64,000 bases of DNA from Climacium dendroides (lineage: Eukaryota; Streptophyta; Bryopsida; Hypnales; Climaciaceae), in assembly GCA_950106755.1 (NCBI GenBank), contig OX467090.1, positions 9,362,001-9,426,000 of the forward strand, written 5' to 3'. Of the stretch, positions 2,791-48,407 are shown piece by piece. Each line of letters begins with the position of its first letter. Position 1 is the first letter of the stretch. The notes under the pieces were generated by a model. It did not search any database and was not told the origin of the DNA. It saw only the letters and a list, made by a program, of their open reading frames with translations. The position numbers and the translations under genes were made by a program.

Positions 2791-2791
2791 A

Positions 2792-2805: not shown

Positions 2806-2808
2806 GTT

Positions 2809-7469: not shown

Positions 7470-7483
7470 TGGAAGGGGGAGAT

Positions 7484-13075: not shown

Positions 13076-13416
13076 GTAAGTTGTCATTCATATGTTTTGT
13101 CATCATTTTTTATGTTATATGCATTTCACAATACTTACATGATTTCTCCATTGTATTTACTAACCTTTTTTTGTCTTGTAGAAACACTACACTAGAGCAA
13201 GTGCAAGATGCAAATGATTGAAGTCCTCCTTTCAGTTTCAATCTCCCAATTTATGCAGAAAAGATTGCTCAAGCATGTATTGATGCCCCATCTCCAGTAG
13301 TGAATCGGCATAAACTTCACTATGATCCAAAGGTGAAAGAGTTCTTGGATATAGAGGCAAATGAAGGAGAGGAAGGTTTAACCTTTAGAGATTCTAGCTC
13401 TAGTGATGATCTTTGA

Positions 13417-14270
13417 GTGGTCTCAATTTTTTAGTCTATATTACTCTTGTGACTCTGAAGTGCCCTACTTATGGCATTTGCTTTATTATATGCATATTAT
13501 GCAGGCATTTAGTTTTGAGCTTTTCATTTTGAATGATGTATCCAAGTGCGCCACATGTTTTAAATTATTGTATTTTCTATTCTTGGTAAGTATTTAATTT
13601 CTCCTTCTTTGCATTATCTCAAGAAAATATTTGTATGTAAATGTTTCAATATTGTTTATAATCTTAACAATTGCAATATCATGCTATATATATATAATTT
13701 TTATGATGGTATTTCATTATTGTAGATTTTTCTTTTAAATTGCTTTTAGCTACTTAATCTTACCATTGCAAGTCTTAAAATGACAAAAATCCATGGTCGT
13801 AGATCTCCTTCCACTTTCATCAAAATTGTAAATCATCATTTTATTAGTTGTCCTAATTTTTTTACATTCCGTAGAATTACATGATCTTTTTAAATATAAA
13901 AATTAAAAACTAATGACAAATACATGGTAATAAGGGGGCTCTTGTAATTCATATTTTAAACTTTAATAAACCATTTTTGGCTCTAGCATCTAAACTCTCC
14001 CCTCTTATAGAAGGTTATAGATGTTTAAAAATTATATAATCCTCATGCTTAAATCACACACTTTCAGGTTTAAGCTTCCAGGATCCCACGACTTTAGGTC
14101 AAACTAGGATAAAAAAATTTCAGTCTAATTGTTTTGTAGCAAATTGATTACATGATTTTAGATACATTTATTTATAGTAGTAGGATTAAAAGTGGTCTTT
14201 TTCCTAAAATCCCTATTCTATGCTCACTTTTCCCTGCTCCCCGCTCCTTGCTCACATACCAGCATTCCTC
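13417..14270. other. 3' flank and probable right terminus of element copy 1
   Basis: After the last exon of copy 1 the DNA is non-coding. At 13791-13805 there is CCATGGTCGTAGATC, close to the inner terminal-repeat motif CCACGGTCATAGGTC of the complete element. At 14219-14270 a GCTCAC, GCTCCCCGCTCC, TTGCTCAC and CAGCATTCCTCG series matches the right end of that element (GCTCAC, GCTCCCCGCTCC, CTCGCTTGCTAGCATCG). I read this as the end of the older copy. The matching left end and target duplication would lie outside the window. Confidence 0.6.
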
Positions 14271-14336
14271 GTTCCGGAATGACCTTCTGTGAGCAAGAGA
14301 GTTAGGGGGAGGTTGTGCGAGGCTTCTTGTGTGTAC

Positions 14337-25028: not shown

Positions 25029-25343
25029 TTCGTGAGCCATCGTCATTGTTGCGATATCGGGAGCTATCGTGACTGCTGCGGTTTCGGGAGCAGCGTGACT
25101 GCTGCGATTTCAGGAGCACCGTGACTGCTGTGGGTTTTGGGAGTATCGTGATTGTTGCGGGTTTTGAGAGCACCGTGACTACTGCGGGATTCGGGAGCAC
25201 CGTGACTACTGCAGGTTTCAAGAGTACTGTGACTGCTGCAGGTTTTGGGAGCATCGTGACTACTGCAGATTTCGGGAGCACCATGACTGCTGCGGTTTCG
25301 GGAGCATCGTGACTGCTGCGGTTTTTAGGAGTATCGTGACTGC
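25029..25343. repeat. Minisatellite, about 27-30-bp unit, about 11 copies
   Basis: Units of the form CGTGACTGCTGCGGTTTCGG followed by GAGCAC repeat head to tail with base changes. Apparent ORFs on both strands are translations of the array. It ends about 240 bp before the start of the dead hAT transposase and may be part of that element. Confidence 0.85.
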
Positions 25344-25585: not shown

Positions 25586-27859
25586 ATGGCAAAGTGGCAG
25601 AGGAGCATCCGTGACAGCTACTTTGTCAAATCGAGGGAAATGGACTTAGAGGAGTTTCCATCCTCCACCGAAAGCTCTAGATCGAGCAAAACTGCAAGTA
25701 TAAATCTCACTCCCCCTTCCCAAACCAAACTTGCGCATGGTTTGTGGAAAGAAGGGTGGTCGACCTAGTTTCCTTGGTTGGAGTTCTCTGCCGAGGTGGG
25801 AAAACTATTCTGTAAAGTTTGTATGGAGAAAGGGGGTCGCTCAACATACACCAAAGAAGGTTCAAAAAGCTTCAAAGTGAGTGCTTTCATGGATCATAGA
25901 AGATCAAATGAACACCGCCACCTTGCCTGGGCGTGCAACAGTGGTGGAAAAACAATAGAAAAAGCAATTCTCAGTGGCCAGCGTGTTTGTGACGGGGCCC
26001 TCCATACTCTTTTTCGAGCGGCCTACTTCATAGGGAAGCAGTCACTGCCTTTTGCAAAATTCCCTACTTTGTGTAAATTGTTGTTGTCTGTCAAGGCTCC
26101 GATCACTACTACCATGTACCAGGATGAAAAAGCTTGCGGTGATTTTGTTCGGTGCCTTTCCATTGTAATCTAGAAGCAGATTCTTTGTAGGGTTCGAAAT
26201 TCAGGTTTCTTTGGCATTATGATTGACGAGTCGACAGATATTAGTGCCACGGGCCATCTTGTCATGTTTGCAACCATTGTAGAAGAAGGTTTGCCGCTTA
26301 CTGTTTTCCTAAGACTATTGCAATTGCAAGGCGGAAAAAAGGACGCTGCCACCATTTTTGATTGTATCATCTCTCAGTTGTGGCTATGGGGTCTTGATCT
26401 TAGTAAGTTTGTGGCCTTCGGCAGTGATGAAGCAAGCACGATGGTAGGCTCCCAAGGCGGTGTTGCAATACGGATAAAAAATGAGGTGAACCCGTTCCTT
26501 TTGTCTTGTCATTGCGTGGCTCACCGAACTAACCTTGCAGCCCTAGATGCTTCCAAGGCACCGGATTGTAAGGATTTGTCTAATGAAATTGATTCGTTGT
26601 TAAATTCAATTTCTTCCTTTTTTAATAAGTCCAGTAAAAGGAAGTAGGGTCTCACGGCCTTGCAAGAGAAGTTGTTTGATTCTAAAAAAACAATGAAACG
26701 GTATCATAAGATCCATTGGTTGAGTCATTGGCAGGCAGTCACAGCTTTGTGTGATTCACTTGAATCGGTACTTGTCTTTTTCAATGGACGGTAAAGATGC
26801 AAGTTAGGCAGCTGTTGTGTTAGACAAGCTAGGGCAGTTCAAGTTTGTTTACATCTTGTTTTTTTGGCTGACATTCTTCACTCTCTAGCTATGTTGTCTA
26901 GGATTTTCCAACTGAAGTTTGTTGATGTCACAACAATAGGTAGTATTGTTTGCACTGAGATTGCTCAAATTCGCATGATGTTTATTGTGGACTCGTGTGA
27001 TTTGATTGTTGATGTATTCAACGAGTGCACTGATTATCATGTTTTGCCTGAATATGGTCCACATGGCGGTTACCTGCGGAGACTGCAGTCTGAGCTGAAA
27101 GGTAATATGTTTCATGATTTTCAATTGCAACGATCCAGGTTGGATTCTGACCTTGAGGAGGCATTGGCATTTCAAAAAAACTTTGTTGAGGCGGTTTGTG
27201 CTGGCCTAGATGCGGGTTTTAGGGATAATGATGTGATTTCTTGTTTCAAAATCCTAAACCCTTCTAACATACCATCAAAGCAAGTGGGCTTGTAGAATTG
27301 GTGCATTGCTGAATTGGAGACTTTGCTGCAGCATTATGGAGTAGACCGGTCGCACTTAGGTTTTTCTCTCCCTCCTCTTGTAGATCAAGCAGCTTGTAAG
27401 CGTGAATTCCTTGCCTTCAAACTCCAATGCACCACGGAATGGGGAGAAAAAAATTTTAGGGATTTGTGGGGCATGATTACTTGGAATCACGCTTTACAAA
27501 CCCAGTATCCCAACCTTCTTGTTCTTGCTGAATTAGCTCATGTGCAATGTGTTTCCACAGCAACTTATGAGCGTGCTTTCAGTGTGCAGAATTTGATCAA
27601 AACTAGAGTTAGAAACAGATTGGGCAGCAAGAACTTAGAAGCAATGCTGCGAATTGCACTAGAAGGCCCTGAAGAAGAGATAGATTATATTATTAGTGAT
27701 GCCATTCCTATTTGGAAGAATGACACAAAGTATCGGTTTTTGTTTGCTAACCCATCTTCTTACTTGAATTCTCCAAATGGACCTAGTGTGAGTGATGCAT
27801 CTTGTCCGTCCAGTGCTCTTCCTCTTGATACTGACAGCAGTGATACGCAACTTTCTTGA
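25586..27859 (+). pseudogene. hAT transposase (DUF4371/ZNF862-like type), decayed
   Basis: Starts MAKWQRSIRDSYF at the ATG at 25586. A zinc-finger segment (FCKVC with later histidines SNEHRH) is followed by the first catalytic region MIDESTDIS at about 26219, the second region AFGSDEASTMVG with CHCVAHRTN at about 26410-26540, and the C-terminal hAT dimerisation block (VSTATYERAFSVQNLIKTRV, LRIAL) at about 27550-27665. The whole protein is in one frame except a short out-of-register stretch near 26790-26865. The stops at 25766, 26171, 26645, about 26805 (shifted frame) and 27293 are all TAG. It is a dead copy. I did not find its terminal inverted repeats. Confidence 0.9.
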
Positions 27860-29977: not shown

Positions 29978-31164
29978 ATGCCTCAACGTAGTGAACGAGT
30001 TGAAGTTATTGAAGACCTTGAAAATCATCTTACAATGCACATCATTTCTAATTCTATGGAAATGGTACCTTCATTTAGTGATGATTCAAATGGAGTAACA
30101 AACAATTCTGATCCTTATGATAGTGATGATGACTTCCTCATAGATGGTGTCCTCACAATCTACAATTTTGTAAATCACAACGGTACTTCTTGGAAAGAAA
30201 ACATGAAAGAGTAAATTCATCACTCATGGAAAATGATTTACTTCGTCTGAACTCTACAGGGTTTAGGGCAAGATTCAGGATGTCACCCATTGCATTTGAT
30301 AGAATATAGAAAATGATTAAAGATCATCACATCTTCACCAATAAAAGCGCCGTTCCTCAATTTGATCCACGGATGCAATTCTTATTGGTTCTCCATAGGT
30401 TTGGAACCTATGGAAATGGAATATCTAGATCAAACATTGTAGTGAACGTCAATATTTCCACAGGTGCTACTTCAAAGTTCACAAAACGGGTTATGATTGC
30501 TTTTCTGAGTCTTGAAAAGAGTGTTGTTTGTTGGCCTAATGAAACAAAAAAACAAGCCACCAAAGCCTCCATAGAAACTTCACATGGATTTCCTGATGTC
30601 ATTGGCATTATGGATGGTACTCATGTTGTGCTAGCCACCAAACCAAGCTACCAAGGGGAACAATACTTCAATAGGAAAAGTCAGTACTCTGTTTCATGTA
30701 TAATAGTCAATGACCAGAATTGTAGGATTACACATATTCATGCAGGCTTCCTAGGCTCTGCCCACGATAGTCGTATTTTTGTCAATTCCCAAGTATGGCT
30801 TAAACATGCAGAGTTCTTTAAAGAAGACGAATACTTACTAACCGACACTAGATACTCTCTAACCAAAATTACTCTACTACCTTACAAGCAACCCGCGTCC
30901 AATAGAAGGGAAAATCAACGCTTCAACAAACATCTCTCTTCTATTTGTGTGAAGTCTGAACATACCATTGGACGATTGAAGGTCAGGTTCCAAAGCCTAC
31001 GAGGCATGCTTACAATGATTAGGAAAAAGGAAACACATACACTTGCTCTTTGGATTCGTAGTTGTGTCATTCTATACAACCTCCTTCTCCAAGATGGATA
31101 TGATTTGAATTGGGAAGGTGGACTAGAAGAACTAGATAGCAATGTCTTGGAGGACACTTTATAG
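29978..31164 (+). pseudogene. PIF/Harbinger transposase (DDE_Tnp_4 type), nearly intact
   Basis: The N-terminal part (29978-30214) is acidic. The catalytic part from about 30229 contains IGIMDGTHV (first Asp), YSVSCIIVNDQNCRITH, GFLGSAHDSRIF, a second Asp in LLTDTRYSLTK, and the Glu region VKSEHTIGRLKVRFQSLRG. This is the order and spacing of DDE_Tnp_4 transposases. Lesions: a frame change near 30195 and one TAG at 30307-30309. Otherwise the frame is open to the TAG at 31162. PIF elements carry a second Myb/SANT-like gene. A candidate is convergent on the minus strand at 32555-33672, itself split by the 14.7-kb element. Confidence 0.9.
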
Positions 31165-32554: not shown

Positions 32555-33672
32555 TCAAGAATTACGGAGTTTTTCAAGCTCAACCAACAAAGCCAACTCA
32601 CGAACATAAGATTCCTGAATTTGTAGTTCACGTTCCTCAGGTAAGTTCTGAATTCGTAGTTCACGTTCTTCATGTAAGTCTTGTTGTTGCTAGTCCATCC
32701 TCATGAATTCAAGATCCAGACGACAAGATTTGAGAGTATACTGCTGCTCTCCATGTTTTTTTTGCATGGAGAGTTTCTTTTCCATGAGAACATAGTTCTA
32801 CTCTTGCATATCTTATATTGACTCTTGGAATGATTTTGGTTTCTTCTTCTTCTCTTTAGATTTAGGATTGAGAGTCCCTATCGATTGTGTTGCCTCAGGT
32901 ACTATAGGTATATCTACAAAGTAAACAATAAAAGAATCAGTACTACAAATTTGATAATCAAAAATTGAGAAATTAAAGAGTGAGTATTAGAGATTGAACA
33001 ATAAGAGAATTACTATTAGAGATTGAACAATCAAACAAGCATAGAGATTCTATACACCGTGAAATGAAAAGAAGAAATTAGGTCATTTTAACTAGGCAAC
33101 TTTACTTTTTGCCAAGGGATAAATTTATTCCTAAATCCCAAAAATTTGGCTAAAATGAACTTGTAAGTCAAAGAAGATCACCCTAAGAAATTAGGATAGA
33201 TACATATCTATTAAGGGTAGGTATAGAAGTTCATTCTAGATAGGTCCTTTTAAACATGTTAAAAAAATTAGAATTTAAAGATAAATGATAGAAGTGAGAC
33301 CTTGAGAAGGGTCCTGTGGAATGGATTCCTCTTGTGTATGAACTTCTACTTCAAAATCATGCTCCTCCTCAATACTTAAATTATAAAATTATTGTCTTCT
33401 GAATTAAGGTCTTTCCCCTCTTCAACTATCGAGTCATGTAATCCTTGCCCAATTGAAGTACCGAATAACAATTCTTCAAAATTTTCATTCATGCCAGTCT
33501 CACCAATGTATGGTGGATTGACAAATACAGTCTCTGACTTGAATGGTTTAACTTGGTAGTAAAATGATCAAATGGAAAGAACCTTGTCACAAATTTTAGT
33601 AATCCCCATTTTTTCATCAAATGAGGTTAAACCTTCACCTATATTTCGCAAGTAGTCCTCTACTTCCTTGAA
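32555..33672 (-). pseudogene. Myb/SANT-like gene, 3' part (split by the 14.7-kb transposon)
   Basis: Reading the minus strand away from the transposon junction, the frame gives FKEVEDYLRNIGEG, ICDKVLSI (then TGA) and YQVKPFKSETVFVNPPYIG down to about 33350. It slips register at ATTTTATAATTTAAG and continues acidic (EEEHDFEVEVHTQEESIP). A second exon (about 32925-32555) encodes KSKEKKKKPKSF and a heptad-rich tail (EERELRIQNLPEERELQIQE, LALLVELEKLRN) ending at TGA. TAA and TAG stops occur in that exon. The style fits the DNA-binding partner protein of PIF/Harbinger elements or an L10-interacting-Myb-like protein. Its missing 5' part lies at 48398-48715, beyond the insertion. Confidence 0.7.
33663..33672. 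repeat. Left target site duplication of the 14.7-kb element
   Basis: CTTCCTTGAA here is repeated exactly at 48398-48407, immediately outside the opposite terminus. A 10-bp duplication is within the 8-11-bp range known for Mutator-like elements. Confidence 0.9.
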
Positions 33673-33810
33673 CAGGGTTGCTATTTGGCGAGCCTATGAG
33701 CCTGAGCCTATGAGCCTGAGCCTATGAGCCTGCGAGCTTGTGAGCGTGAAAAAAATGAATTGAAAAAATTTAGAATCTTGTAGAGTTGACCTATGACCGT
33801 GGGTATTGTG
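33673..33810. repeat. Left terminal inverted repeat of the 14.7-kb element
   Basis: Begins CAGGGTTGCTATTTGGCGAG, then three tandem copies of a 14-bp CCTATGAGCCTGAG unit from about 33694, then GCGAGCTTGTGAGCGTGAA, an A-rich part, and GACCTATGACCGTGG at 33788. Each block has a counterpart in inverted order at the right end. Confidence 0.8.
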
Positions 33811-34404
33811 CTGTGTACAGAGTGGTTAATGTGAGATCTGTTTTTGAAAGTCGGTTTAGTGTCCTGTTATTATTTTTCAATCTTTCTTATAGGCAAAGAC
33901 AAAATACTATGAATTGAAGAAAATGAAGCAAGTAGAAAACATGCAAGAAAATTGAACACATGGAAGAAGTATCCATAAACACACAAATCCATCTACAATG
34001 AAAATCAACACATAATAGTTTGACCCATTAAAGAGATTTGTCAATCTCATGAATCTAAGTTGTTTAGGACTCTATCAAAGAATCAGAACTCGAAGATGAC
34101 TCCGAGGACTCTCTACCTTCGGATGCTGAAACATCTATATACTGTAAGACATTTAGAGCGTAAGTGTCTTTACGGCGTTTGGGTTTGGAGCAACCAAACT
34201 CCGCGAAGGCACTCGCCATTTGCTCGGCATAGATTGGGAGCTCAAAAGACTTCTCCGGACTGATGAGAAGACTTAGTTGGGGTAGGGTGTCATTCCTTGC
34301 CATCAATCTCCCATCTCTGCAATAGAAAAAGACATATTGTCAATATTGTAGAACATGAAAGTCTTCATCCAAGCAAAGATGAAAGAAAATGCCAACTTAC
34401 TTAC

Positions 34405-35421
34405 TGGATTTTCCCTTGCGAACGAATTTGCGAGGCACCACTGGCATATCCTCCGGATCTTGTGAAAGGTGAACTATTGGTGGCACAGTTGGTGTCACCA
34501 CTACGGGTGTTGGTGACTTCCTCATGGGTTTCAAAATGGCATCATAAATGTCTTTATTCCCTTCCAAAGCCACAATGTGGTGGCCGGTGCCACGGCAAGC
34601 CGTAATACATGCACCTGGAGGCAATGAAATCAAAATGACTTAGTTCCATGAAAGAATTGGAAGAACACATTTGGAGGAGTAAACTTCTGAATGGAATCAT
34701 TACCTGTAGATGCGGTACAATCCAGAATCAAGTCTCCTGGAACGCTTGTTGCCTCCAGGAGGATAGTGAAGAACCTTGGATCTTTTTCGCGTTCACCTCG
34801 CCAAGGTTTGTTTCCATTCATAGCCACGTCATCTACATGGGTGTAATTGATCAGCATGTCATCGATAGCCAAGTCCACACCAGCCTTCATTGTGGTATTA
34901 GTCTTTTTGAAGGAAAATTTGGATTTCCCTTTGGAGCCAAGGTCCTTCACAAGGAGGGTGATTCCAAACTTTTGTGTCTGCAACGTCCATAGCAAATGTA
35001 CGTAAGAATGCATTGAATGGAGTGCATTGCAACTTGTTCATAAAAGTCAATAAAATTCTATGAAAATTACTGTCTTTGTGTTGTCTATAGCCGAGGTGAT
35101 GTGCATGCGGTTCATCCCCATCCAGTCCTTCTTCATCAGCAAGTCATACGCCTCACATACCCCAGCAATGTTCTCTTTGGATTTGATGTTGTAGGAGTGA
35201 AATAGAATGATGCACCCATCATCTTGTAGATGCTCTGCGGCGAAGCTACATGCCAACTGGAGAGCCTCATCATCAGCATCTGCATTCCACATTGGCACCT
35301 CATGGGTCGGTGTAGAGAGCCCAGGTACGGGTAAGTTCTCCAGACAATCAATGAATATGACATCCACCCCCGGTCGAGCATTTGGCACTCCCTCGAACAT
35401 GCGAGTCTTTCCGGCCGACAT
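34405..35421 (-). other. Methyltransferase-like domain exons, copy 2
   Basis: Exon 35421-35071 holds DVIFIDCLENLPVP in the place of the DPPY motif IV, followed by LQDDGCIILFHS. Exon 34977-34704 holds KPWRGEREKDPRFF (motif X position) and GDLILDCTASTG (motif I). Exon 34614-34405 continues with ACRGTGHHIVALEGNKD, the usual second half of the SAM pocket (an acidic residue after a beta strand). The IV-X-I order is diagnostic of beta-class amino-methyltransferases. Loss of PPY and of FxGxG suggests a binding role and not catalysis, or a divergent active site. There are no stops in these exons. Confidence 0.7.
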
Positions 35422-37839
35422 CTGCAAACATGTAGAACATGGTGAAGTTAAAAATAAGCACAGAAAACATTCATGAGACATGAAAGCACAAAATGCGCTT
35501 TTGAGTACAAAGATGCATATGCATACCTTTTTCAAGAAATGCAGCACCTCGTTGTACCACGTGGACTTCTCCTCAACCATGTCTTTTGCCAGGACTTCGA
35601 TGGAGATGTTGAGGATCAAATCCTCCGTCTTAGAAACATCACCTTCTGTAATGACCATGGCTTGTGTCATACGAGTGATAACTTCCTTGGTGAGCTGTAG
35701 GAGAGTAGCCTTCTTCTGTACTGCACTTTGCGCCTGTGAATCTTCATTTGCGGTGGAAGATGGTACCACCTCGCCTCCCGCTTCCTCCTTCTTCTTTCCC
35801 TTTCCCTTGCCTTTAACCTTCTCTTCCTTTTCTTTTGCCACCTTTTTGTCAACGAGCTCGGATGCCTTCATCTCCTTCGCTTCAAGGTGGACTTGGACCC
35901 GCGCCTCTTTCTTCCGGTCCAGAAAATCCCTCCTTGCAATGGCCTTCTTTCTCGCTTTGTCATCCAGGCCTGTAAACTCATTGATCTCTAAGTCCAGGAC
36001 CCCTTTCCCGTCCAAAGATCTCCTGAATTCAACCTCGGAAGGAGGAGTGAACTCGAGGAGACAATCCAAGTACCATCCTCCACCACTGAGATGAGCTGTA
36101 GTGTAGGTGCGGAGCTGGTGTGTGGTGAACATACAAGAATTGGATGTGCGATCCAGATATGATGATAGGAAGGGGGGAAGGTCTGAGCGATCGATGGCTC
36201 CTTTTCCTTCGAGCTCAAATTTGAAATATCTACAGCACAAGCATGATTTTGCATTCAGGAGAATGTAAATGATGATCATGGAATCTCTACAACATACATC
36301 TGTGAGCAATTCCGGATGGTAAGACCAACGAACTTGTGAAGAATGAATGCATTTCCAGTATAAGGGCCTAATGGAGACGTTGCAGAAGAGAATTATCATA
36401 CAATTGTATACCGAAAGGTTCTAAAATAAGGAGTTAGAGTTGAAGTGAACATTTGAAACCTCATTCTAATGGACTTCAAATAGTATAGTGATTTTTACAA
36501 GAACTTGCTGTCCACCAAGTTATTAGACATATTCTAATATTGAGATAGTGGAACTCACCGGTACAAAACTCTGCGCACAGCAGCGGCTGACGCTTCGTGA
36601 GCCATGAACGAGTTCCCCTTTTTGAAGTAATTGTGCCCTTTGAAATATGTCTGAAACCCGTGCTCCCAAATTGTGCGCCTCCACCCTTCTATGTACTCTA
36701 CCAAGTACTGTGGTTGTGTTGGAATGCTGTAGTTCACAGTGATGTTGTCCTGCTTCACCACCAAGTCGAAGTACTCCACTGTTGCATCTTCGATCTGCAG
36801 AGTACAATGCATGCTAAAAATGTACAATTGAAGACGTTCATGGTCCCATTCTAAACTTCTGAGTTACAATTTGAAAACCAAGTATCGCTTGGTATAGTTA
36901 CTTGACTACAGAAATCAATTCCCTTACCCCAGCATACCAGACGCATTTTGTAAGGAAATGGGGCAGGAGATTTTCGGAGACGGGCTTTGGTGGGAACTTC
37001 TTTGCTTCACGAGATGGCGCGGAGGAGTTCCACCACTTCAAGATCTTGATCTTGTGTGTAGGCGCCATGTTGCATGTGGCCACCATTTGCAACTTCTCCA
37101 ATGTCATTTCAGGCACTTCATTAGTGCTCCAGTGCCTCTCCACCTATGACAGCAACACATTCAATAACTCTTGGCGTTTGAAAACAGAAGAAGTAAATTT
37201 GTAGTTGTGTAAGGTTTCAGAATTAGACTGACCTCTTGTAAAAAGCCTGGCCCGTTAGATGGTTGAGCCACTGCCAACAACTTCCCCATTTTCACCATCA
37301 GAGTTTTGGTTTTCTCCTTTGCTCCCGCCCTCATGGCAAGAGCGACTTCTTCAGGGGTCCTCTCCTCTTCTGGTGTAGCATCGGTATACTTTCTCACTAC
37401 AGCATCCGCAGCTTGGGAAATCTCTTGCTGCACATTCAGACGATAACATTGAATTAGAAGTTAGGCATGTGAAGAGTTTTGGGAGCAGACTGCAACAAAC
37501 TGAAGGATTCCAAATTTGTATAACACATAGTGTCTTACCCTGAAAATGAACGATGTGAAGACCTCCACAAGTATGCTATACCATTTCCTTGAAACCTTGA
37601 ATTGCAAACACCTTTTCTTCTCCCCGGGCTTGAGGAGATCAGCAAATCGGTTGATTGGGAGAAGACCATACTTCTGCACCTGGTACAGAGTGTGTACCAA
37701 GTTTGTCTTCACGTGTAAATCCTCCACTGACCTGGAAGTAGATGACTATTTTAGGAAATCCAATAAGCCTCCATGATTTTACAACTAGGGCACATAAAAA
37801 CCAAAGACCGGAAAAGCAGCTCAAGAAGGAAAAACTCAC

Positions 37840-38537
37840 TTGTTGATGTCATGCATCACTTGCATAACAAGCTTGGTCTTCCCTTTGGTTTCCAGTACAA
37901 TGCAGTCTACGACACAGTGCCATTTTGGGAGCAATGTGTAGCACTTGTCAATGAGGTTCATCCATGCAATGCGGCAATGGTTGCCATCGCAAATGAAGAA
38001 CTTCAAGTTCTTGAGGAACTGAAGTTCAGGTCTGGAGTCGAGGTAGTGTGTGAACACTTCATTTTTCTCTCTCTAGCTTGGATCCCACTTGTTCATCTCG
38101 TCTTCTGCGAACTCTTGGCTTTCTCCTTCCTCATTAGTGGTAGAGACATAGAACACTGCCGCTCCATCACGGTATCCACCTGCGAATTCTTGCTCCAACT
38201 TCGTAATGTCACAAGCGAGTGTGGGCCTCACCATGGGCATAACGACAAGTCTGCAAAGCGGGATGTGTAGCCGGAAGAGTTCTTCGGGCTTCATTCGCAG
38301 AGTGGAGAGGATATCTACTGAGTCGCCTTTTTGTATGCGCCGCAATTCATCCTCCATGAGTCCTTGATCTTTGTCTTCTAGGTCATCTATTTGCATGGGA
38401 TCTTGTCCTCCTCCTTCTTCGTCCTCTTCTTCATCCTCTTCATCTTCGTCCCCAATATGCGGCTATGTCGTTTCATCTGTTCCCGGAGTCTCCAAGATGG
38501 TCTCTTCTTGAGTTACTCCAGTGGGTGAAACATCCAT
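37840..38537 (-). other. Exon with acidic stretch and ParB/sulfiredoxin-like domain, copy 2
   Basis: The acceptor AG is followed directly by ATGGATG. The exon encodes an acidic run (DEDEEDEEEDEE), a strand like HIPLCRLVVMPMVRP, GYRDG, KWDP and FFICDGNHCRIAWM near 37960-38000, then WHCVVDCIVLE. Position and pattern match the GxHR box of ParB N-terminal and sulfiredoxin folds (CTP- or phosphate-binding in the families), but the Arg expected after GNH is Cys here, while copy 1 has Arg. TAG occurs at 38463-38465 and 38073-38075; the latter aligns with Trp in copy 1. Confidence 0.72.
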
Positions 38538-38761
38538 CTGCATGTACAATTCCAGTCAGAGAAGATTGCACTCGCAAATTAAAAAAGAGGCCAAGTCCGT
38601 GCGAAGAATTTATATTGAGACGCAGTTGAAAATTCTTTACTTCAATAAAAAAAATTACACTTATAAAATGGAAGAGTGGTAAATATATGAAAGAAAAACA
38701 GCCTGCACATGGCTTGCATGTCTAAAACCGCAGAAGGTATGTAATTGGGGTCATGAAACCC

Positions 38762-39201
38762 TATTGGATGATGTCCACGTCATCATCCTCATCTGAGTCT
38801 GAGCTAAGAATGATGACTTCATATGTGTAAACTCTACCAATTCCAATACTCTCACTCACTTCCTCAAACGAGGGGCTAGAGCTAGCATTTGAGAGCTCAA
38901 TGGCGGAGGAATATTCCATCTCCGAGCTCTCAGAGGAGAACTATGGCCCAGGCCCTTGGTTCCAAGTAAGCCTATCTCCCTCGAAGTCATTTACAGCACG
39001 CTCTGCAGCGTCCATGATGTCTGCAAAACTCACCAAGTTCTCTTCATCATCACTAGAGTCACTTGAAAGCACTTGGCGTGCTTGAGGCCCCTTCTGTGGT
39101 TGAGAAGGCCCTACTATCTGCAACGACGTCAAGGTCTGGTCAATTGGGGCCTGCTTCTCTTTAGATGTCACCCTTGGGCGCTTGCCTTTGCGTTGGCCAA
39201 C
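38762..39201 (-). other. Possible alternative terminal exon with SUMO-interaction-like motif
   Basis: Exon 4 can end at the GAA|GTGAGT donor at 38860. The same frame also stays open beyond it, apart from the TAG at 38941, and ends with VIILSSDSDEDDD and a TAG at about 38762. Hydrophobic residues followed by Ser-Asp and acidic residues are the form of a phospho-regulated SUMO-interacting motif. A short isoform made of exons 1-4 is therefore possible, with the main ParB frame starting at the ATG right at the next acceptor. This is inference from open frame and motif only. Confidence 0.4.
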
Positions 39202-39861
39202 CTGGAGGAATGAATACAATGAAATTAGAGTTGAGGTTCAAGACAAGGTCTAAGAGCCATTGAATGCAACTGTAAGCAAGGAAACTTCAATTTACAAATC
39301 TCAACATGTACTATAAATACCAAAGGTCTCCGTAACCGAACTTCCTGTACATGTAGGATTCATTCCCCTACATGAGTTCTATACCTACATTGAAGTGTAA
39401 AATCAAGACGCATATGTCTTGGCAAGGTAATTCTCTCTAACAATATGTTATAACTCTTTTAGAAGAACAAAACATGCATTTGCAAAGAACACAGTGCAAT
39501 AGCAATTCAAAATCCAAGACAAAGACAAAGACATAGAGAACTAAAGGACGAGTCCTAACGAATAATGTAAGCAAAAAAAATTGGGAACTTGAGAACGAGT
39601 TCCCTAAGACAATCAGAGCTTGGGGACGAGTTCCTAACGACATTGAGAGCACTAAGCCTCAATCCCAAATCCGAATTCCCTCTATTTCATTACTTAAATA
39701 TAAACAAAAAAAGACAGATACTAATACCTCATCAGAGATTGATTGTGTGCCATCGAACAACTCCCCATGACTATCAAATGTCTGAAGAAAGCAAATGCAC
39801 ACGTCAAGATTGAAGATGGACCCATATAGCAGTTTTGGAGAACAAATTGAGTAAAAACAAC

Positions 39862-39969
39862 TTGGGCATGTGAATAATTCCATCAAGCTAGGGTGTCACC
39901 GTGAACACTGTCGGATCCGACAGTGTTCACGGTGACATCCCAGCTTGATGGAATTATTCACATGCCCAA
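39862..39969. repeat. Palindrome P1 (108 bp)
   Basis: Two 54-bp arms meet at GTCGGATCCGAC with no spacer and two mismatched pairs. Outer ends are TTGGGCATGT and ACATGCCCAA. It lies in the intron between exons 2 and 3 of the ParB/methyltransferase gene, so it is expected to form a long stem in the pre-mRNA. Confidence 0.95.
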
Positions 39970-40089
39970 ATCTCTAATTCTCGCAGACTCATTATAATGA
40001 GATATGACCAGTCCAAGCCGACATTAAAATCCTACAAGATAAAGGCCAGCCCACATCCAATTAGATCCACGCCAGTCCACGTGGGAGTT

Positions 40090-40197
40090 TTGGGCACGTC
40101 AAAAATGCCATCAGGCTGGGGTGTCACCGTGAACACTGTCGGATCCGACGGTGTTCACGGTGACACCCCAGCCTGATGGCATTTTTGACGTGCCCAA
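40090..40197. repeat. Palindrome P2 (108 bp)
   Basis: Two 54-bp arms with a single mismatch around the same centre GTCGGATCCGAC. Outer ends are TTGGGCACGT and ACGTGCCCAA. It is homologous to P1, but several base differences from P1 are present in both arms. Same intron as P1. Confidence 0.95.
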
Positions 40198-40272
40198 GTT
40201 CTCTCTCAAAATCAGATTCCTCTCAAGTAGCACCGGGTCACGGTGGTACCGGGTCAGGGTAGTCGCTGGAGT

Positions 40273-40382
40273 CGTCTGCCTCAAGAAAACATGATCAGCC
40301 CGGGGGTGCTGCTTGAACACCGTCGGATCCGACGGTGTTCAAGCAGCACCCCCGGGCTGATCATGTTTTCTTGAGGCAGACG
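40273..40382. repeat. Palindrome P3 (110 bp, perfect)
   Basis: Two 55-bp arms are exact inverse copies around GTCGGATCCGAC. Arm sequence is related to P1 and P2 (TCAGCCCGGGG against TCAGGCTGGGG; TTGAACACCGTC against GTGAACACTGTC) but has changed in both arms together. Same intron. Confidence 0.95.
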
Positions 40383-40507
40383 TGACATCTCCCTTCTCAC
40401 ACTTCTGATGTTGCCGCCCCTTCCTGAATCCCAGATTGGAAACTCAGCAGTGGAAGCCAGAGCAATCGATTGAGCAATACAGATTCTAACTGAATCAGGC
40501 ACTCAAG

Positions 40508-40625
40508 AAAACAAGCATTACCCGCGTGACGTGCTTGACACGACTATCATGCACCGCGCGTGGCGCGGGTGATGCTTGGACTGCGCGAGTGACGCTGCTG
40601 AAGTTTGGACTGCGCGAGTGGCGCT
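40508..40625. repeat. GC-rich hairpin and duplicated 23-bp motif
   Basis: AAGCATTACCCGCG pairs with CGCGGGTGATGCTT about 60 bp away. Just beyond it, TTGGACTGCGCGAGTG followed by RCGCTG occurs twice. It lies between P3 and exon 2 of the same gene. Confidence 0.65.
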
Positions 40626-41064
40626 GTACTAGCTTGGACTCCTAGCGCATTGGACTCACACGATGGACAAAAAACTAGACACTAACCTGAAGCGCGTCGT
40701 CCGGCTGGGCATCTGCCATCTTGGAACAACTGCGAGTACTGCGGGCCATTGCAGCTTCGTCCTGCAGATCAAGGAGTGCCAAGCTGTTAATAATTGATTC
40801 ACAAAATGAAAATCCCAGAAGTTCTCATTCCAACACACGCGGCCGTTTGTGGCTTGTGATATCGTCAAGCACCAACTTCTCAATGCAAGGTCCTCCACCG
40901 TCCAACGCGTATCGTGAGCGTTGCGCGAGTTTGAATGTTTGCCGCCTACGTCCACAGGAGGAATCCCTGGAAGCTTATTCGTTGGACGGCGCAGAGAGAT
41001 ATCCGCGAGTCTGTCTCGATATAGATTCACTTTCGCGGCATCCAGGACTCACCGACGCGGCATC

Positions 41065-41146
41065 CGTGAACACCGTCGGATCCGTGAACACTGTCGGATC
41101 CGTGAACACCGTCGGATTCGTGAACACCGTCGGATCCGTGAACATC
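41065..41146. repeat. 18-bp direct repeat array (4.5 copies)
   Basis: CGTGAACACCGTCGGATC is repeated head to tail at 41065, 41083, 41101 and 41119 with single-base changes, then a half unit at 41137. The unit equals the half-arm core of palindromes P1-P3. It lies in intron 1 of the ParB/methyltransferase gene. Frames read across it on either strand are artefacts. Confidence 0.95.
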
Positions 41147-42405
41147 CGTGAATTTGGATCAGAAGTACCTTTTCGGAGGCATTTTGGACGCTTGGAAATC
41201 AAGAACCAACTTCCTGGAGCGAGCGGTGCTCCAACTTCGAATTGTGGCTCCGGGCGCTCGACCGATTCTAAGCTCTTATTCAATTTCCCCGATTTCCAGT
41301 TTTAGACTCACAGTTGGAGACTGAGGACTCCCACGACTGGCTTCTGGATTGCTAGTTCAGAGGACGACTAACTTCTGAGCACTCTTTCATTTTGAAAACT
41401 CCAAAGCACCCCTGCTTGTGATTAAATTGCTTTGGCATTATAGAACTTTAAAAAAAAACATTTTCTTTCTTAGTGACATTAGAATGTCTACAAGCCTTCA
41501 AAGACTATGAATGTTTGCAAGCTTCATGTGAACACCGCAGACAAATTGTTCTTGTTCATACAAATGTCTGGCCTTGACCTTAAACACCCTTTCCAAATTA
41601 CAGAAACGTACTTCTAAAATAAGGGATGTTCTACTTGTCTCTTTGGAGCAGCACCAGAGCCTTCAAGGCCTTCACTCCATATGAGAGTACTTATCACTCT
41701 CATATGATCTTATTTGTCAGTACTAAAAATTGTACAACAACAACAGGAATGCAAACTTTGCGTGTCTAGAAATGCAACTAAACGCAAGTTCTCTCAATGC
41801 TTGTCCATGACTCACTAAAAGTCTAAAACTGAAGGTCTACAACTCAATGTCTGGAACTCAAAGTGTACAGCTCCACTTTGACATAGTCTTAAAATGGCCT
41901 ACTAAAAGCACGTCTGTGCCATGCAGAGGTGTGTATTCAGGGTAAGTCTCCGATATGATAATGGTCAGTCTCTAAGCAATGTAGTGCACAATCCACTACA
42001 ATTAGGTATCATAACCAAGCTAAAGTCCTTTGTCACTATAATCTAGGTTGACGCCATGACTGCAATATATGAGAGGAGTTCAAATCGAAACTCACATTCA
42101 CCGTGTCGTCTCCTCCAAATTTGCTAAGTCCTGCACTCTCTCTGATCCCGTCATGCACAGTGTGCAATGGGAGACCCACTTCATCTACTGAAGGTGCATC
42201 ACCCTCTTGGAACTAGATGGCTCTTGGTACCTCTCTCTCTACACCCTGCCTCGTCCTTGAAACTGTTTTCTTTGCTCTCGTCATCTTGGATACCCTCAAA
42301 GCCTTTGCTGTGGAAAAGAAGAAAGTTCTACGTCTCTTCCTTTTTGTACGATGTGACGGAGCTAAGATGGCCGAGTTTGGATTGCCTACAAGCATGAGAC
42401 AGCAC

Positions 42406-43147
42406 AAACTACATGATTACTAAGATGCAATGCTACTACCACAATTAGAGTTGTAAAATGAAAAGGCTTTGAGCAGGTCTAAGGTACAGCTTATAGTTGC
42501 TCTTGAACGAGGTTCGCATGCTCGAAATTACTGCATTCTTCTAACTGGCCAAGCTATAATTAATCTCCTAAGATCAATTGACACGTGAGTATTGGCGGCT
42601 CCATGAAAGCGCCATGCATTTATTTTGCTTTGAAATCGGCATACTATGCTCTTGAAGTACTAGCAGCCCTAATGACTTTGAAGTCCGTCTCGTTTTGACA
42701 AAACTGTCATGCTGTCAGTTGAGTTTGCCACGCTCCAAATCCTCCAATGTCGGCACAATATTTCCTCCGCCTCCAGTAATTAATTTTTGAAAATGACAGC
42801 GGAGTTGGGCACTCCTAACAATGACAGAGCTCCTGCAAAGTGTGCATGTATTGGCAATGAGTTTGGATACCTAATACATCATTGCAAAAATTTGGTATCA
42901 TTGCTTGACGGCTAAGGTTATTAAACTATTCTTAATTTCAAAATTCTAACCTTTATTGGCGGCAATACGGAAAGTAACTTAATTGAGTGGCAATAGAAAT
43001 TTGTACTAACCTGGACCTCGTTGTCTTCGTGAAAAGTGATGATCACAATGATTGCAAGGAACTCCTCAACAAAGTATAAAATCCTCAACATCCTTCTTAA
43101 AAGCCAGTTCTCTCATCAAAAATTCCTGCAGTCATCCTACTTACACT
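42406..43147. promoter_or_regulatory. Intergenic interval between the divergent gene pair
   Basis: About 740 bp separate the first recognised exon of the ParB/methyltransferase gene from the ATG chosen for the transposase. A bidirectional promoter is likely from the arrangement, but I could not single out a convincing TATA box, and an upstream 5' exon of either gene could still be here. Confidence 0.4.
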
Positions 43148-46100
43148 ATGGCTTGTATTAGAGTAGACGGTCATGAAATACCTTTGGTGTTTCTAGTGAA
43201 TCACGAAGGACATGCTAGAGTACTCAATCACCTTTTGCATGTCAGATTCAAGTTCCTAGAGTCTTCAATCTATGTCGAAGAAGAGAGAAAGTCGGAATCA
43301 GGGGAATTAGAGCATTCCATTCCAGTGGAGAAGAGTGTAGAAGAAGAAGGCCACTGTTGGTATCTGCGGGCAGGAAACTATAGAGCTTTTGGGCTTCCTC
43401 TTAGTCTTCTTGGGGCAGCCACTGAGCTAGGTAGTCGGCAATCAGACAATTCTACAGTGGACATGCCTTACATGTCTCCAAGACTTCCAGCTAATCTACC
43501 AAGTGACTGCTTTCCTATACTCCCAAACAATACGATTCTTACGAAGGTGAAGAGGGAGAAAATGGATACCATTGTAGAGTTGTCTAGTGAATCTGAGGGA
43601 GAGTCCCCGCAAGTTGCACTTCAAAACGCCACGTTTGCGGTCCATAGTATGTTAGATACAAAAGTCACATCAACCACCCCATCCAATAGTTTACAGTCTC
43701 CTGTGTTTCCATGCCCTCCACTAACAGCAAATCTTGGTACCCAAGTGAGTATTATGGATTGCTTGAAGAGATTGTCCAGTATTCGTCGCTCTAGAAGTGA
43801 ATTGTCCACAACAAACTTTGATGTTATAAAGCACCATCGGGTGCAGTACCTTCCCCCTTCCTACAATAGAGATGTACTATTTGAGTTACCTCCGTGTCGC
43901 TCGTCCTCTTCATCATCCGCAGCGAAGAATTTGGAGGGAATGAACAAGCGCTATGATGGACATATATGGTGCAAACTCGTCACTACAAACATCCACAACG
44001 TCGACAACCTAAAGTTCCGTAAGTCTTTCTGTGCCAGTCACCTTGCTTGTAAGAACCATGAGTGCGAGTACTTGAAGAGGGCTGGAAAAAGGAATGAGAC
44101 AGAGTGGAGTGGATCCACAGTCTTCCCGTTTGCAGTAGAGGATGGTCCACCCAAAGACTGTACCCTAGTGTGTAAAGTCTGCAAAGTGACACCCACTTGC
44201 CTTTACACATGCGATACTAGGATCTACTATTGTTATAGCGACAATCCAAATATGACAAGGGCATCTATTCACTTTGGAGCCCATACTCATCCAGTAGGAA
44301 AGGGCATGTATAGAGATTCTAAAAAAGAAATTAGCGAACTCCTAGCGGAGCAGGTTGCGAAAACACCGACAGCCACTAACTCTGCTATAGCATTGTCCGT
44401 TAGCAAAGATTTCCTGTCGAACTACTTATTTCACCATGGAGAGGGAGAGAAGAGAATGTTGAAGGGAGAGGAAGTGGATGAGGTGATGGATCGATTCCAA
44501 TATCTAAGTAGCCCTAGTATACGCAACGTAATTTCTTCCTTCCGCTCAAATAACCGAGGAGGGGTTATTGACAACATTATGACTATGAAGAGAGAGTCGA
44601 AGTTCGAATTCATACACGATAGCGTCTTCCCAGGACAAGGCAAAGAGAAAGTATACGTTTTTAAAATGCTAACTGAAGGACCAGGAAGCGGAGTGGATAT
44701 GGTGAAGCGTATGCAACCAGGAAAGGACCTTGAAAACGCGTGGATGATGTTCGACCACGTGAAGCGCGTAAAAGATTGGACCACCATGGCTTGCCACGTG
44801 TACGACTGTCAGTACAAGAAGGTGATGACCATCGTAGTATGCGATATGCAGTCTGAAGATACCCAGGTCCAAGTACAATTTTGGAGGAGTTTGAATGCTG
44901 TTATGGCACGACATGGCGTGCCTGACCCGAACTTCAAAGGCTTCATGGCAGATAGTGCGATGGCTAATTGGAATGCGGTCCGTATAGTATATGGGAGTGG
45001 TTCTGCGAACGAGGTCATGGAGAACCGAGAGAGAACGTGTTTGCTACATTGGAGCACTTCCCTTCATAAGCACACACAGAAACACATCAAACAGAACTTT
45101 CAGCACCAACACATTACGCTATGTAAGCAATACAAGGAATCGAAGACCATGGATGAAGCTGAGCTTCGATACCTGGCAATCCGGTCATGGTGGTTGTCAT
45201 CTGGAGCCGCGAATGAAGAAGCACTTCATCATTTAGATCATTGGCTTGCATTCTGGCACTTTCGATACCTGCAGTGGGGAGGCTTTATGACAATGGTAAG
45301 TGACCGTGTCATCTCTCTATCTATATGCATGGGGAGGCTTCATGATATACACATATGCAAACACCTAAACATTTACATGTATATGAACATACGTGTATAT
45401 GGGTGTTTTTGGTAGTGTAGAATTTTTTTGATTCAAGTAGTTTTTTGAAATCCACGTATTCTTAGGGCACAATTCTGTTTTAGTGCACTACTGTTTTTGT
45501 AGTGAATTATTGGTTGCAGCCTAGATTTTTTTAATTTTTTCTCTTATTTGAATAGTATTTTGTTAGTCTAGACTTCTTTTTAGGATAGTGTTTTTTTTTG
45601 GCTTGATTTCCTTTATTCCTTTTATTGATAGTCTAGTTCTTTTGTTTTAGACGAATGTTCTTAGCCTAGTATTTTTTGGTAGTGTGCTAGTCATTTGTTC
45701 ACTCCTAATTTTTTGTCAATGTAATATTCTTTTGAATATAGAGCTTTTTTCAGCAGAGTATTTCTTGGGTAGTTCACTAGTCTTCTAAACACTCCATTTT
45801 TTTAATCCATTTAATATTTTGTTGGAAGTCAATTTCTTTACCCTTCTCATATAAGTGCTATCTTCCAAGGAAACTCTCTACTGACCTCACAGAATGTATC
45901 TTTCATTTCCAATTTCCAAAATTCATTGGAAGTAGTGGAAGGTAGTCCTTCCATTTTTTTCCCTGTGACGTTCAGGGACTACAAAAGGGAGTACCAATAG
46001 AGAACATTTGGACATCCGTCGGATCCGACGGAAGTTGGAGTGCTCACTTCGAATGCTACTATTTGGGATACCTTGCATGAAAATATGTAAATTTTGGTCA

Positions 46101-47539
46101 AAGGTACAAATCCATAATTGGAGACTGAAGTATTGTAATGGGTGCATTTGCAGGGCTTGAGTTTGGAGGAGATGGCAGACTTGCCTTCGTGTAACTTGTC
46201 TGAAACAATGCACAATAAGTGGCTTCAAATGTCCGGAAACAGAGGGAACAATTTATTTGACGCCACTTGTGATGACAGTATTCGTGCTTGGATGCAAATG
46301 ACAAAGTATCGCGCCTACCTCAAAGGTCATGCAAGTGGGTCCGGCCCATCTAAGGGGGAACTGAAGCTGAGAGCTGCAAGACGTAGTGGTTACCCAAAGA
46401 AAATTGCCGAGGCCTTGAACACATTACCTGAAGCACATGGTGTGGGAAGTCGTGTACCACATTTGGAAGGAGAGGAAGTATTTGGAAGCACAAAGAGGAA
46501 GTTGGACGTACCTATTGGTGATGCTGGAGACTCCCATAGACCAGATAAGATCAATTTCTCTCAACCACGTGTCCGAACTAGGTCAACGAAGGCTTCAGAA
46601 GAATTGATGGATGGTAAGGGCAATACAATTGAGGGTCGCCCCTTGCAGTATGTGACCGTTGCATTTGAAAATGACTGTGACACATCGAAGTGGCACATTG
46701 CAAGGATTAGCCACAAGTCAAATGCCAGATGTCAAGCTCAACAACGGACGTCAAACATCAAGTGTAACACAAAAATTGCAAAGGGGAGGAAGGGAACCCC
46801 AGCTCCCACTTATCGCAGGAGGAAAGAAGAATATGGGAGTAGGCGCGAGGTGGTCTCAGACTTCTGGTTCTGTTGGGACGACATTGAAAGGTGCGTAAAA
46901 GGCTCAAAGCGGAAATGGGTCATTGATTGGCCTGAGGTGCCGAAGGTTTGGCCCGTATTGATTGGGACAAATCTCAATCGAGACGAAACTTTATTGCTAC
47001 AGCATGCGGGCTTCCACCTCCAAGAACGACCTACCCTGTCGCCTCGTCGATTGTTCACCATGTCTAAGATTTTTGAAAGTGTTTTGTATGACCAACCATC
47101 GCCCAAGAATCCAGATGCTTATCCAACAATCAGGAACAACCGAACCATCAGAAGAATTGCAAATGCTCCAAGTACGGAACAACGGAACAAGTGGGAGAGT
47201 GCTGGGAACATTAAAGGACAAATTCTAGGAGTGACCCTACTCCCTTTTCCAGGCCTTGGCGCAATAGTGGAATTGGAGACGGGATCTAACCCTACCAAAA
47301 ACGTATATCGAATTACGGTGGGTATGCTCCCCTCGTGCACTTGCCCGGATTTTGTGAATATGGCCGTCTCGGCAATTGGAGGAAGGCAGCAGTATGTGAA
47401 TTGTAAACATCTATATTATTTGTATAGGTATTTTTGCAAGATGGATATCCATGATGACAAGTTCATTCATGCACCTAGTTATAGCTTCAATGAGTTGCTA
47501 CTTCTACTTCGAGCGGGACTCATCACTATCCCTGAGTAG
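43148..47539 (+). CDS. Mutator-like transposase with GCM/WRKY-like and SWIM zinc-binding regions
   Basis: Two exons, 43148-45295 and 46154-47539, joined by a GTAAGT..CAG phase-0 intron, give about 1,177 codons with no stop. The N-terminal third ends in TIVELSSESEGE, a SUMO-interaction-like motif. The region 43940-44300 has many Cys/His (SFCASHLACKNHECEYLKR, CKVCKVTPTCLYTC, HFGAHTHP), like GCM/WRKY-type fingers seen in Mutator-like transposases. The catalytic region has YDCQYKKVMTIVVCD, FMADSAMANWNA and CLLHWSTSLHK (a CxxH-type box after the second Asp). Exon 2 has a SWIM finger, CTCPDF with YVNCKHLYYLYRY. The first ATG with a good context is 43148; upstream in-frame codons start without ATG. 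This is the only intact long gene of the window and the likely mobilising enzyme of the 14.7-kb element. Confidence 0.82.
45296..46153 (+). other. Intron of the transposase gene, with a degenerate GTCGGATCCGAC palindrome
   Basis: T-rich intron of 858 bp. At 46016-46031 it contains CCGTCGGATCCGACGG exactly. Beyond this core the arms match only in part (for example TGCTCAC against an inverted TGTTCTC), as if an older palindrome of the P1-P3 family had decayed. Confidence 0.75.
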
Positions 47540-48214
47540 GCACAATTGCAATTTTTGATAAATTCATGCATATTGTATTCGTTACTATATCTGGCAATAG
47601 AAATGATTTCAAGCATGTACCAATCAAAATGTTCCTTCATTTGCAAAGTGTGGAAGTATGTTTCAGAAGTGTCATTACTAAATTGTGTGAAATGAAATAC
47701 CAATGCATGGCTAGAACCCTAATCCTATACTCTCGTGCTACCCTACACATACGAAGACTAAACTCATATAGATTTTTTGCTTTTCCACCTCTTCCCTACA
47801 ATCTTAGTTCTTGTCAGGTTGGAAGGCAAAAAATTAGAAATTTAAAATACATGAAGTAAATCACTTTACAGTCAAAATTAGAAATCTACCACATTTGTTT
47901 GTAGTAGTCAACAAACCTTGACCTTTAGCTTGGCTAACTCTTCTATACCATTCCTCTTATACTAGCACTTGTTAGAAATAGCAATCATTATGGGATAGTT
48001 ACTAATTAGAAGCCCTAGTTCTCCGTGCTCAATTTATCCCCTTCAAAAAACACTGTAGTGTTCTCCGGAACTCATGATGGTCTATTTTATAAAAAGTGTT
48101 ATACCCCTACTTTTGTGTAGTAGGATGAATAAGAGTTTCAAATATATACATAATTTTACAAGTCCGAGAAGTTAGCAAATGAGGAACCCAAGCCTGAAAT
48201 TATAAATTCAATGT
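47540..48214. other. 3' flank of the transposase gene
   Basis: AT-rich DNA between the transposase stop and the right inverted repeat. I see no further gene. Confidence 0.4.
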
Positions 48215-48397
48215 AGACCACGGTAATAGGAGCCACGGTCATAGGTCACAAAATTTACTATAAATAGTAAGTTTTTGGATGAAAAAAAATTGGATGAAAA
48301 AAATTTCCAAAAATATACTTTTGGTGCTCACCGCTCACAAACTTCACGCTCGCGGCTCGCAAGCTCCCCGCTCCAAGCTCGCTTGCTAGCATCGTTG
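48215..48397. repeat. Right terminal inverted repeat of the 14.7-kb element
   Basis: Contains CCACGGTCATAGGTC at 48233-48247 (exact inverse of the left inner motif), a T/A-rich spacer, then GCTCACCGCTCACAAACTTC, GCTCGCGGCTCGCAAGCTCC, and the terminus GCTTGCTAGCATCGTTG. The GCTC-rich block mirrors the GAGC-rich block of the left end. Confidence 0.8.
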
Positions 48398-48407
48398 CTT
48401 CCTTGAA
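48398..48407. repeat. Right target site duplication of the 14.7-kb element
   Basis: It is an exact copy of CTTCCTTGAA at 33663-33672. Removing the element and one copy rejoins the Myb/SANT-like reading frame on the minus strand, which independently confirms both junctions. Confidence 0.9.

Follow-up and report, generated by a model that had tools for sequence, protein, structure and literature searches.

In VANDAL21, short motifs that recur in introns and upstream regions are reported to be bound by VANC, with loss of methylation (PMC5735166). ParB proteins are described as loading at parS sites and spreading with CTP switching; sulfiredoxin is given as the commonest form of the ParB fold in eukaryotes, and fusions of the ParB fold to PF01555 as more frequent in phages (PMC12704722). 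The word methyltransferase is absent from the main text of a survey of Mutator elements (PMC6446971), and in the open-access library searched no paper was found whose title or start of abstract reports a eukaryotic transposon with a ParB or ParB-methyltransferase gene. Here we describe a DNA transposon at positions 33673-48397 of a 64,000-nucleotide stretch (the window) of the 412.6 Mb genome of Climacium dendroides (assembly GCA_950106755.1, contig OX467090.1, positions 9362001-9426000), in which a transposase gene and a ParB/methyltransferase-like gene (the passenger) are arranged side by side and divergently. An initial annotation, made from the letters of the window, had proposed a Mutator-like element with such a cargo.

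A multi-copy transposon with two linked genes

The interval 33673-48397 was confirmed as one copy of a multi-copy DNA transposon (family 1). The element occupied exactly these positions and was bounded on each side by the 10-bp target-site duplication (TSD) proposed in the initial annotation, CTTCCTTGAA (coordinates of all features in Table 1). The genome was searched with the leftmost and rightmost 300 bases of the element, the passenger and the transposase, and the best 40 matches of each search were scored (40 of 177 for the left end, 40 of 312 for the right end, 40 of 561 for the passenger and 40 of 763 for the transposase). Left-end matches were 92-100% identical over the main match. Pairing of ends gave at least 30 elements, the window's included: 22 spanned 14.7-15.3 kb and 8 were longer, up to 31.9 kb, presumably enlarged by nested insertions; 10 left and 10 right ends among the matches listed were left unpaired. 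In the 29 paired copies besides the window, TSDs were exact over 10 bp in 23, exact over 9 bp in one (L025), imperfect, with one or two mismatches, in four (L010, L011, L019 and L046) and absent from one (L068). The termini and duplications recurred at other copies as the initial annotation would have it, with a recognisable 9-10-bp TSD in 28 of 29 paired copies plus the window copy; the TSDs of L024 (exact), L010 and L011 were scored with T as the first element base. Base counts over the TSDs of the paired copies showed no strong common target sequence.

The left terminus started at the identical point amid differing flanks in 20 of 20 left halves, with GGGTTGC in 19 and a variant in L013. 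Gapless inward alignment of the two termini, another claim of the initial annotation, was present in imperfect form (21 of the first 40 bases identical; the 99.9% level in 5000 random pairs was 20 and the maximum 22). The exact inverted 15-bp inner motif, GACCTATGACCGTGG, was found at both ends of the window element and recurred elsewhere: the left copy was exact in 18 of 20 left halves, L013 and L024 having one mismatch each, and the right copy was exact in all three right parts that extended to it (the stretch of L014 did not). A reading frame rejoined across the insertion had also been put forward; the open run extended over 45 codons only, and a rejoined host gene was ruled out as evidence.

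Collinearity with the window element extended over the full stretch in 13 of the 20 left halves; it broke off between element positions 6341 and 6904 in L013, L018 and L023, L024 and L028 contained insertions, and L026 and L027 were patchy. Identity to the window element in aligned blocks longer than 1 kb of the left halves was 90.6-98.1%. Three copies read end to end (L022, L015 and L017) each contained both genes and the right end; the first stretch of L014 ended within the element, and its right end, with an exact duplication, was found in a separate read. A transposase match in the correct order and strand lay within 25 kb of 32 of the 40 scored passenger-piece matches. Eight transposase matches lacked a scored passenger match, and at least three of them (L010, L012 and L024) were in copies that hold passenger sequence, so that the shortfall is at least partly due to scoring the best 40 only.

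A second family with the same layout

A profile search with PF01555 led back into the window at 12224-12826, to a second passenger gene. This was 28-45% identical to the family 1 passenger by block, and 5 of the 6 splice positions examined fitted family 1 exon boundaries, exon 7 being ambiguous. Its transposase was found in the adjoining 8 kb, where the divergent layout predicted it, and was 42% identical to that of family 1 over exon 1. Eighteen loose matches to the right end of family 1 were considered for the right end of this second element, and the one at -5961 was taken because it lay at the expected position. The duplication, GTTCCGGAAT at 14271-14280 and GTTCCGGAGT at the far end, agreed at 9 of 10 bases; of two near-copies of GTTCCGGAGT, the one at 14271 comes directly after a matching terminal repeat. 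The two ends of the element agreed at 28 of 40 bases; the right ends of the two families were alike at 27 of 40, and the left ends at 17 of 40, within the random range.

The second element looks older than the family 1 copy and has the same layout, with its own transposase, passenger and terminal repeats. A Ty3-type LTR retroelement, recognised by eye, is nested in its centre (2090-7992; repeats at 2090-2695 and 7483-7992, polymerase-like frames at 4387-7469).

The second-family ParB exon gave 29 matches in the genome, all of which were scored. A divergent transposase match within 26 kb (farthest 25.5 kb) was present for all 9 matches at 95% identity or more, counting that of the window, for 10 of 12 at 76-84% and for none of 8 short ones at 67-69%. 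The genome contains two or more related families of this kind, and in both families studied the transposase gene is divergent beside a ParB/methyltransferase-like gene. That the two genes travel together, a check called for at the outset, held for 32 of 40 matches in family 1 and for 19 of 21 second-family matches at 76% or more. A chance composite of the two genes was ruled out by the 28 of 29 copies with duplications and by the linkage in two families. In two cases, database proteins of the transposase and ParB kinds came from contigs of equal length (185737 and 583271), which may point to linkage outside this genome too.

Structure and selection of the passenger gene

The two large divergent genes of the initial annotation were both real, the left one being the passenger, with 10 exons, AG before each and GT after all except the last. 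We read this gene in the window copy and 18 others, 19 rows in all, and set aside the interrupted copies L024 and L028. In L022 the frame was wholly open and every splice site intact; L010, L013 and L014 had no premature stop and one or two altered splice sites; L019, L023, L026 and L027 were frame-shifted, with at least 15 stops each; the remaining rows had 1-4 premature stops each, the window copy two in-frame TAG codons (25 and 155).

Singleton variants were neutral (231 amino-acid changes vs. 239.8 expected). Among shared variants, amino-acid changes numbered 90 (109.5 expected), below all 500 simulations, and silent changes 83 (62.7 expected). The subfamily copy L072 carried a passenger open across 1110 codons, with 92.6% identity to L022 in exons and 84.7% in introns; dN/dS between the two was 0.039/0.239 = 0.165 by NG86 and 0.043/0.175 = 0.25 by YN00, and 0.030/0.159 in the methyltransferase-like part. 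The passenger of L073, the second copy of the L072 subfamily, was frame-shifted. We conclude that the passenger stayed under purifying selection and functional during the spread of the family, and that decay is now under way in most copies.

ParB-like and methyltransferase-like parts

Passenger exon 1 was predicted to adopt a ParB/sulfiredoxin-type fold, with a phage DNA methylase among the fold matches. The GxxR phosphate-binding motif (Box II) occurred as GNHR; across 43 relatives the first three residues did not vary, and R was present in at least 90%. A protein search with exon 1 alone gave 165 matches at E up to 1, and one with the whole passenger gave no match, probably since the exons were read separately and length limits exclude them. 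The ParB assignment of the initial annotation was thus borne out by the predicted fold and unsupported by sequence search. Weak Pfam names for passenger pieces (E 0.054 to 0.45), including a helical toxin domain far under the cut-off, were taken as noise. Matches to DndB and DUF1015, which we take to be ParB-superfamily relatives, were too weak to be used (E 0.03-0.06).

At the position of catalytic motif IV, where beta-class N6/N4 DNA methyltransferases have DPPY, 13 family 1 rows had DCPEN (9), DCLEN (2), DCPES (1) or DCPKN (1) and none had DPPY; L072 had DCPEN and the second family DILEN. A stretch resembling AdoMet motif I was retained in both families, with an altered glycine pattern. In PHROGs, four of four weak matches, covering passenger residues 927-987, were methyltransferases (E 0.12-0.22). 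In the PDB a BTB protein without relation to these enzymes ranked first (E 0.41), ahead of DpnA (E 1.2 and 1.3) and MboIIA (E 1.7); the weak DpnA alignment was collinear at motif IV and then motif I. PF01555 matched the second-family passenger at positions 45-206 with an E of 0.034, short of the cut-off, and gave 56 weak matches in the genome, the top one elsewhere (E 0.0083). Since DPPY is replaced in both families, methylation is doubtful; we read the end of the passenger, which weakly resembles beta-class DNA methyltransferases, as of methyltransferase ancestry, with adenine methylation probably lost. The methyltransferase call of the initial annotation was in this way weakly upheld for ancestry and not upheld for activity.

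Central palindromes and the third gene

A third gene, absent from the gene list of the initial annotation, encodes a small acidic protein with a basic patch and acidic motifs, which we take to be SUMO-interaction-like. The window copy contained one in-frame TAG. In exon 2 the stop position was identical in 12 of 12 copies with the frame printed, and premature stops were present in L013, L018, L020 and L023; exon 2 was matched without a start motif in 7 copies, and L028 had no match. Exon 1 was unmatched in L013, L018, L023, L024 and L028.

Three palindromes of 108-118 bp with the common core TGAACACNGTCGGATCCGACNGTGTTCA were found in the centre of the family 1 element, and none arose in 100 Markov control runs. 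A shorter core was present in the transposase intron in five of five copies read (three exact, two with one mismatch). The number and length of the palindromes differed among family 1 copies, and no palindrome of 60 bp or more was found in the stretches read of L018, L023, L024 and L028. Repeat number and length also varied across the central palindrome region as a whole (L009-L027, element positions ~6200-7500), with duplications and deletions. When up to 4 mismatches were allowed, the second family had 8 occurrences of the inverted repeat TGTCCTCGTNNACGAGGACA, against a mean of 0.06 and a maximum of 1 in controls; seven lay in the central tandem repeats and one in the transposase intron. Each family had its own central palindromic motif, and neither motif was found in the element of the other.

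Transposase and host mutation pattern

The transposase fold, predicted on a relative, was nearest to the IS256 type, in agreement with the IS256/MULE DDE fold, and the 9-10-bp duplications fall within the 8-11 bp of Mutator-like elements (MULEs). No match to PF10551, the Pfam MULE profile, was found in the window transposase or in 22 relatives, and no profile-profile match between the transposase and 6 host MULE frames, with low diversity on both sides. PF10551 found 41 places in the genome, none among the paired element copies when compared by eye. The Mutator-like label agrees with duplication length and fold, without a match to Pfam or host MULE profiles; the best reading is a large cut-and-paste DNA transposon of a divergent Mutator-like clade with a predicted IS256/Mutator-type transposase fold, a clade missed by current profile libraries.

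A middle transposase exon at ~45999-46090 was rejected, and the segment taken as intron, owing to an in-frame TAG common to 4 of 4 aligned copies and a misfit in the far splice phase; an exon beginning just past this TAG failed on phase. A viral source for the transposase was likewise rejected, as one scan of viral contigs with the transposase protein gave no relative.

Decay by C>T change in the element copies, per site and row, was 0.065-0.067 at CAG/CTG, 0.047 at CG, 0.036 at CCG and 0.012 at CHH; all other changes amounted to 0.0034. This pattern fits plant-like CG and CHG cytosine methylation.

Table 1. Features of the two elements, in window coordinates; negative values lie to the left of the window.
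Feature	Position	Strand	Description
Left TSD, family 1	33663-33672	no strand	CTTCCTTGAA
Left terminus	33673-33760	+	CAGGGTTGCTATTTGGCGAG, then short GAGC-rich repeats
Inner inverted motif, left copy	33788-33802	+	15 bp, GACCTATGACCGTGG
Passenger gene	34064-38537	-	ParB/methyltransferase-like; 10 exons, 1111 codons including stop
Passenger exons 8-9	34401-34977	-	AdoMet-motif-I-like stretch LDCTASTGACITACRGTG
Passenger exon 7	35071-35421	-	position of methyltransferase motif IV; DCLEN in window copy
Passenger exon 1	37840-38537	-	acidic stretch and predicted ParB/sulfiredoxin-fold domain; GNHR motif (GNHC in window copy)
Third gene	38761-40749	-	exons 40749-40687 and 39201-38761; 167 codons plus stop
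Palindrome	39860-39971	no strand	112 bp, centred on GTCGGATCCGAC; within intron 1 of third gene
Palindrome	40090-40197	no strand	108 bp; core as at 39860-39971
Palindrome	40269-40386	no strand	118 bp; core as at 39860-39971
Tandem repeats	41062-41138	-	four 18-bp repeats of half-site GGATCCGACNGTGTTCA; upstream of third gene
Transposase gene	43148-47539	+	exons 43148-45295 and 46154-47539; 1177 aa
Single palindromic core	46016-46031	no strand	CCGTCGGATCCGACGG; in transposase intron
Inner inverted motif, right copy	48233-48247	-	15 bp, GACCTATGACCGTGG
Right terminus	48310-48397	-	GAGC-rich; reads CAACGATGCTAGCAAGCGAGC inward
Right TSD, family 1	48398-48407	no strand	CTTCCTTGAA
Second element	1-14270		portion inside window; whole read as -5961 to 14270, 20232 bp
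Second-family transposase	-429 to -4650		locus L084; just left of window
Second-family central tandem repeats	1762-2106, also 8123-8571	no strand	~86 bp, holding inverted repeat TGTCCTCGTNNACGAGGACA
Second-family passenger gene	9370-13374	+	ParB/methyltransferase-like; divergent, broken by stop codons

Other features of the window, seen by eye, were frames resembling a hAT-type transposase with a C-terminal dimerisation region (26174-27859) and a frame resembling a PIF/Harbinger-type DDE nuclease (30310-31164). A run of 27-bp tandem repeats (25056-25342) was open on the minus strand as a repetitive protein stretch.

Discussion

The VANDAL21-like layout of the motifs, a passenger under selection and the loading of ParB at parS together favour an accessory protein that recognises the palindromes of its own element. 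In our analysis the passenger would act in cis on the element's own DNA through the central palindromes, most likely keeping the element expressed, and we give this explanation a rough probability of 0.55. The accessory protein would bind NTP and associate with DNA, and would probably have lost adenine methyltransferase activity; it might locate the element via the element's own palindromic sites near the promoters, act there in cis and most likely sustain expression in the face of cytosine methylation by the host, a role like that of VANC in VANDAL, or, less likely, help the transposase or the excised DNA.

Several observations weigh against this explanation. The transposase itself, or another of the three element proteins, could be the palindrome binder, or the palindromes could be a source of hairpin RNA and silencing. 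Premature stops shared among passenger copies numbered 7 against an expectation of 7.8, with no depletion, and some of the shared variation is therefore decay. No ParB match for the passenger was found in PDB sequence or Pfam/NCBIfam searches, and no Foldseek row for its fold reached an E of 0.001; the scores behind the methyltransferase assignment are weak (E 0.12-0.22; 1.2-1.7, behind an unrelated row at 0.41; 0.034, under the cut-off). The transposase-intron site of the second family was weak, with 4 mismatches and one good half. Transposase matches near 70% DNA identity had no detected ParB neighbour (best 40 of 471), and the transposase-ParB pair may not be universal.

The rival that survives best, though we think it unlikely, is a role as transposition co-factor, comparable to that of mudrB in MuDR, serving integration or the handling of excised DNA and not expression. 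It would suit the pairing of passenger and transposase in most copies tested; mudrB is reported to be apparently required for integration (PMC6446971), and ParB-type domains can nick DNA, nicking having been reported for a ParB-methylase (PMC5512222). Against it, the palindromes lie in the central promoter region and introns, whereas the sites of a synaptic factor would be expected close to the termini. Somewhat more speculative still is a transposon clade with its own ParB/parS-like system, in which an NTP-switched protein of the ParB fold would load at the central palindromes specific to each family, spread along the element, and shield it or mark it as self, the former methyltransferase domain being kept for DNA or AdoMet binding.

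We consider it improbable that the accessory protein is a still-active DNA methyltransferase with an altered motif IV that marks element DNA. DPPY is replaced by D-C-P-E in most family 1 rows and by D-I-L-E in family 2, and motif I has a changed glycine pattern; against this have to be set the purifying selection on the methyltransferase-like part, the motif-I-like stretch retained in both families and the reported occurrence of active cytosine methyltransferases in retrotransposons (PMC5890265). A captured gene without function for the element is very improbable: Mutator-like elements reportedly tend to pick up host gene fragments (PMC6446971), and the passenger is broken in most copies read and its shared stops are not depleted, but it was under purifying selection between subfamilies, and the same linkage is seen in two families with fewer than half of their aligned protein residues in common.

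Plant transposons are already known to oppose silencing by sequence-specific proteins (VANC in VANDAL). If recognition of its own palindromes by the passenger protein is true, these would be joined by another protein type, unrelated to VANC, that does a comparable job and whose mechanism in bacteria, NTP-dependent loading at palindromic sites, is well understood, giving a testable model of transposon self-recognition, and the ParB fold in eukaryotes would be extended beyond sulfiredoxin.

Among described systems, several lineages of fungal TET/JBP transposons likewise carry a DNA-modification gene, reportedly as a means for the transposon to evade silencing (PMC12730594), but the enzyme fold is another one, the hosts are fungi and the transposases belong to other superfamilies. 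Mobile elements with a DNA-methyltransferase gene are also reported from dinoflagellates and charophytes; these are retrotransposons whose C5 enzymes were shown to be active, and a ParB domain is unmentioned in the abstract (PMC5890265). Phage and bacterial ParB-methyltransferase fusions likewise have a ParB-fold domain ahead of a beta-class methyltransferase-like part, whereas the gene described here has 10 exons, is longer, has its catalytic motif replaced and is paired with a eukaryotic transposase. The 8-11-bp duplications and the genes beside the transposase are as reported for MuDR (mudrB) and VANDAL (VANB and VANC) (PMC6446971, PMC5735166), and the repeated motifs in introns and upstream regions are like those of VANDAL21, the comparison being one of motif layout alone. 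Unlike the MULEs with accessory genes, the present elements have a transposase unrecognised by the Pfam MULE profile, short and imperfect terminal repeats, palindromic motifs and a passenger that combines a predicted ParB/sulfiredoxin fold with a methyltransferase-like part.

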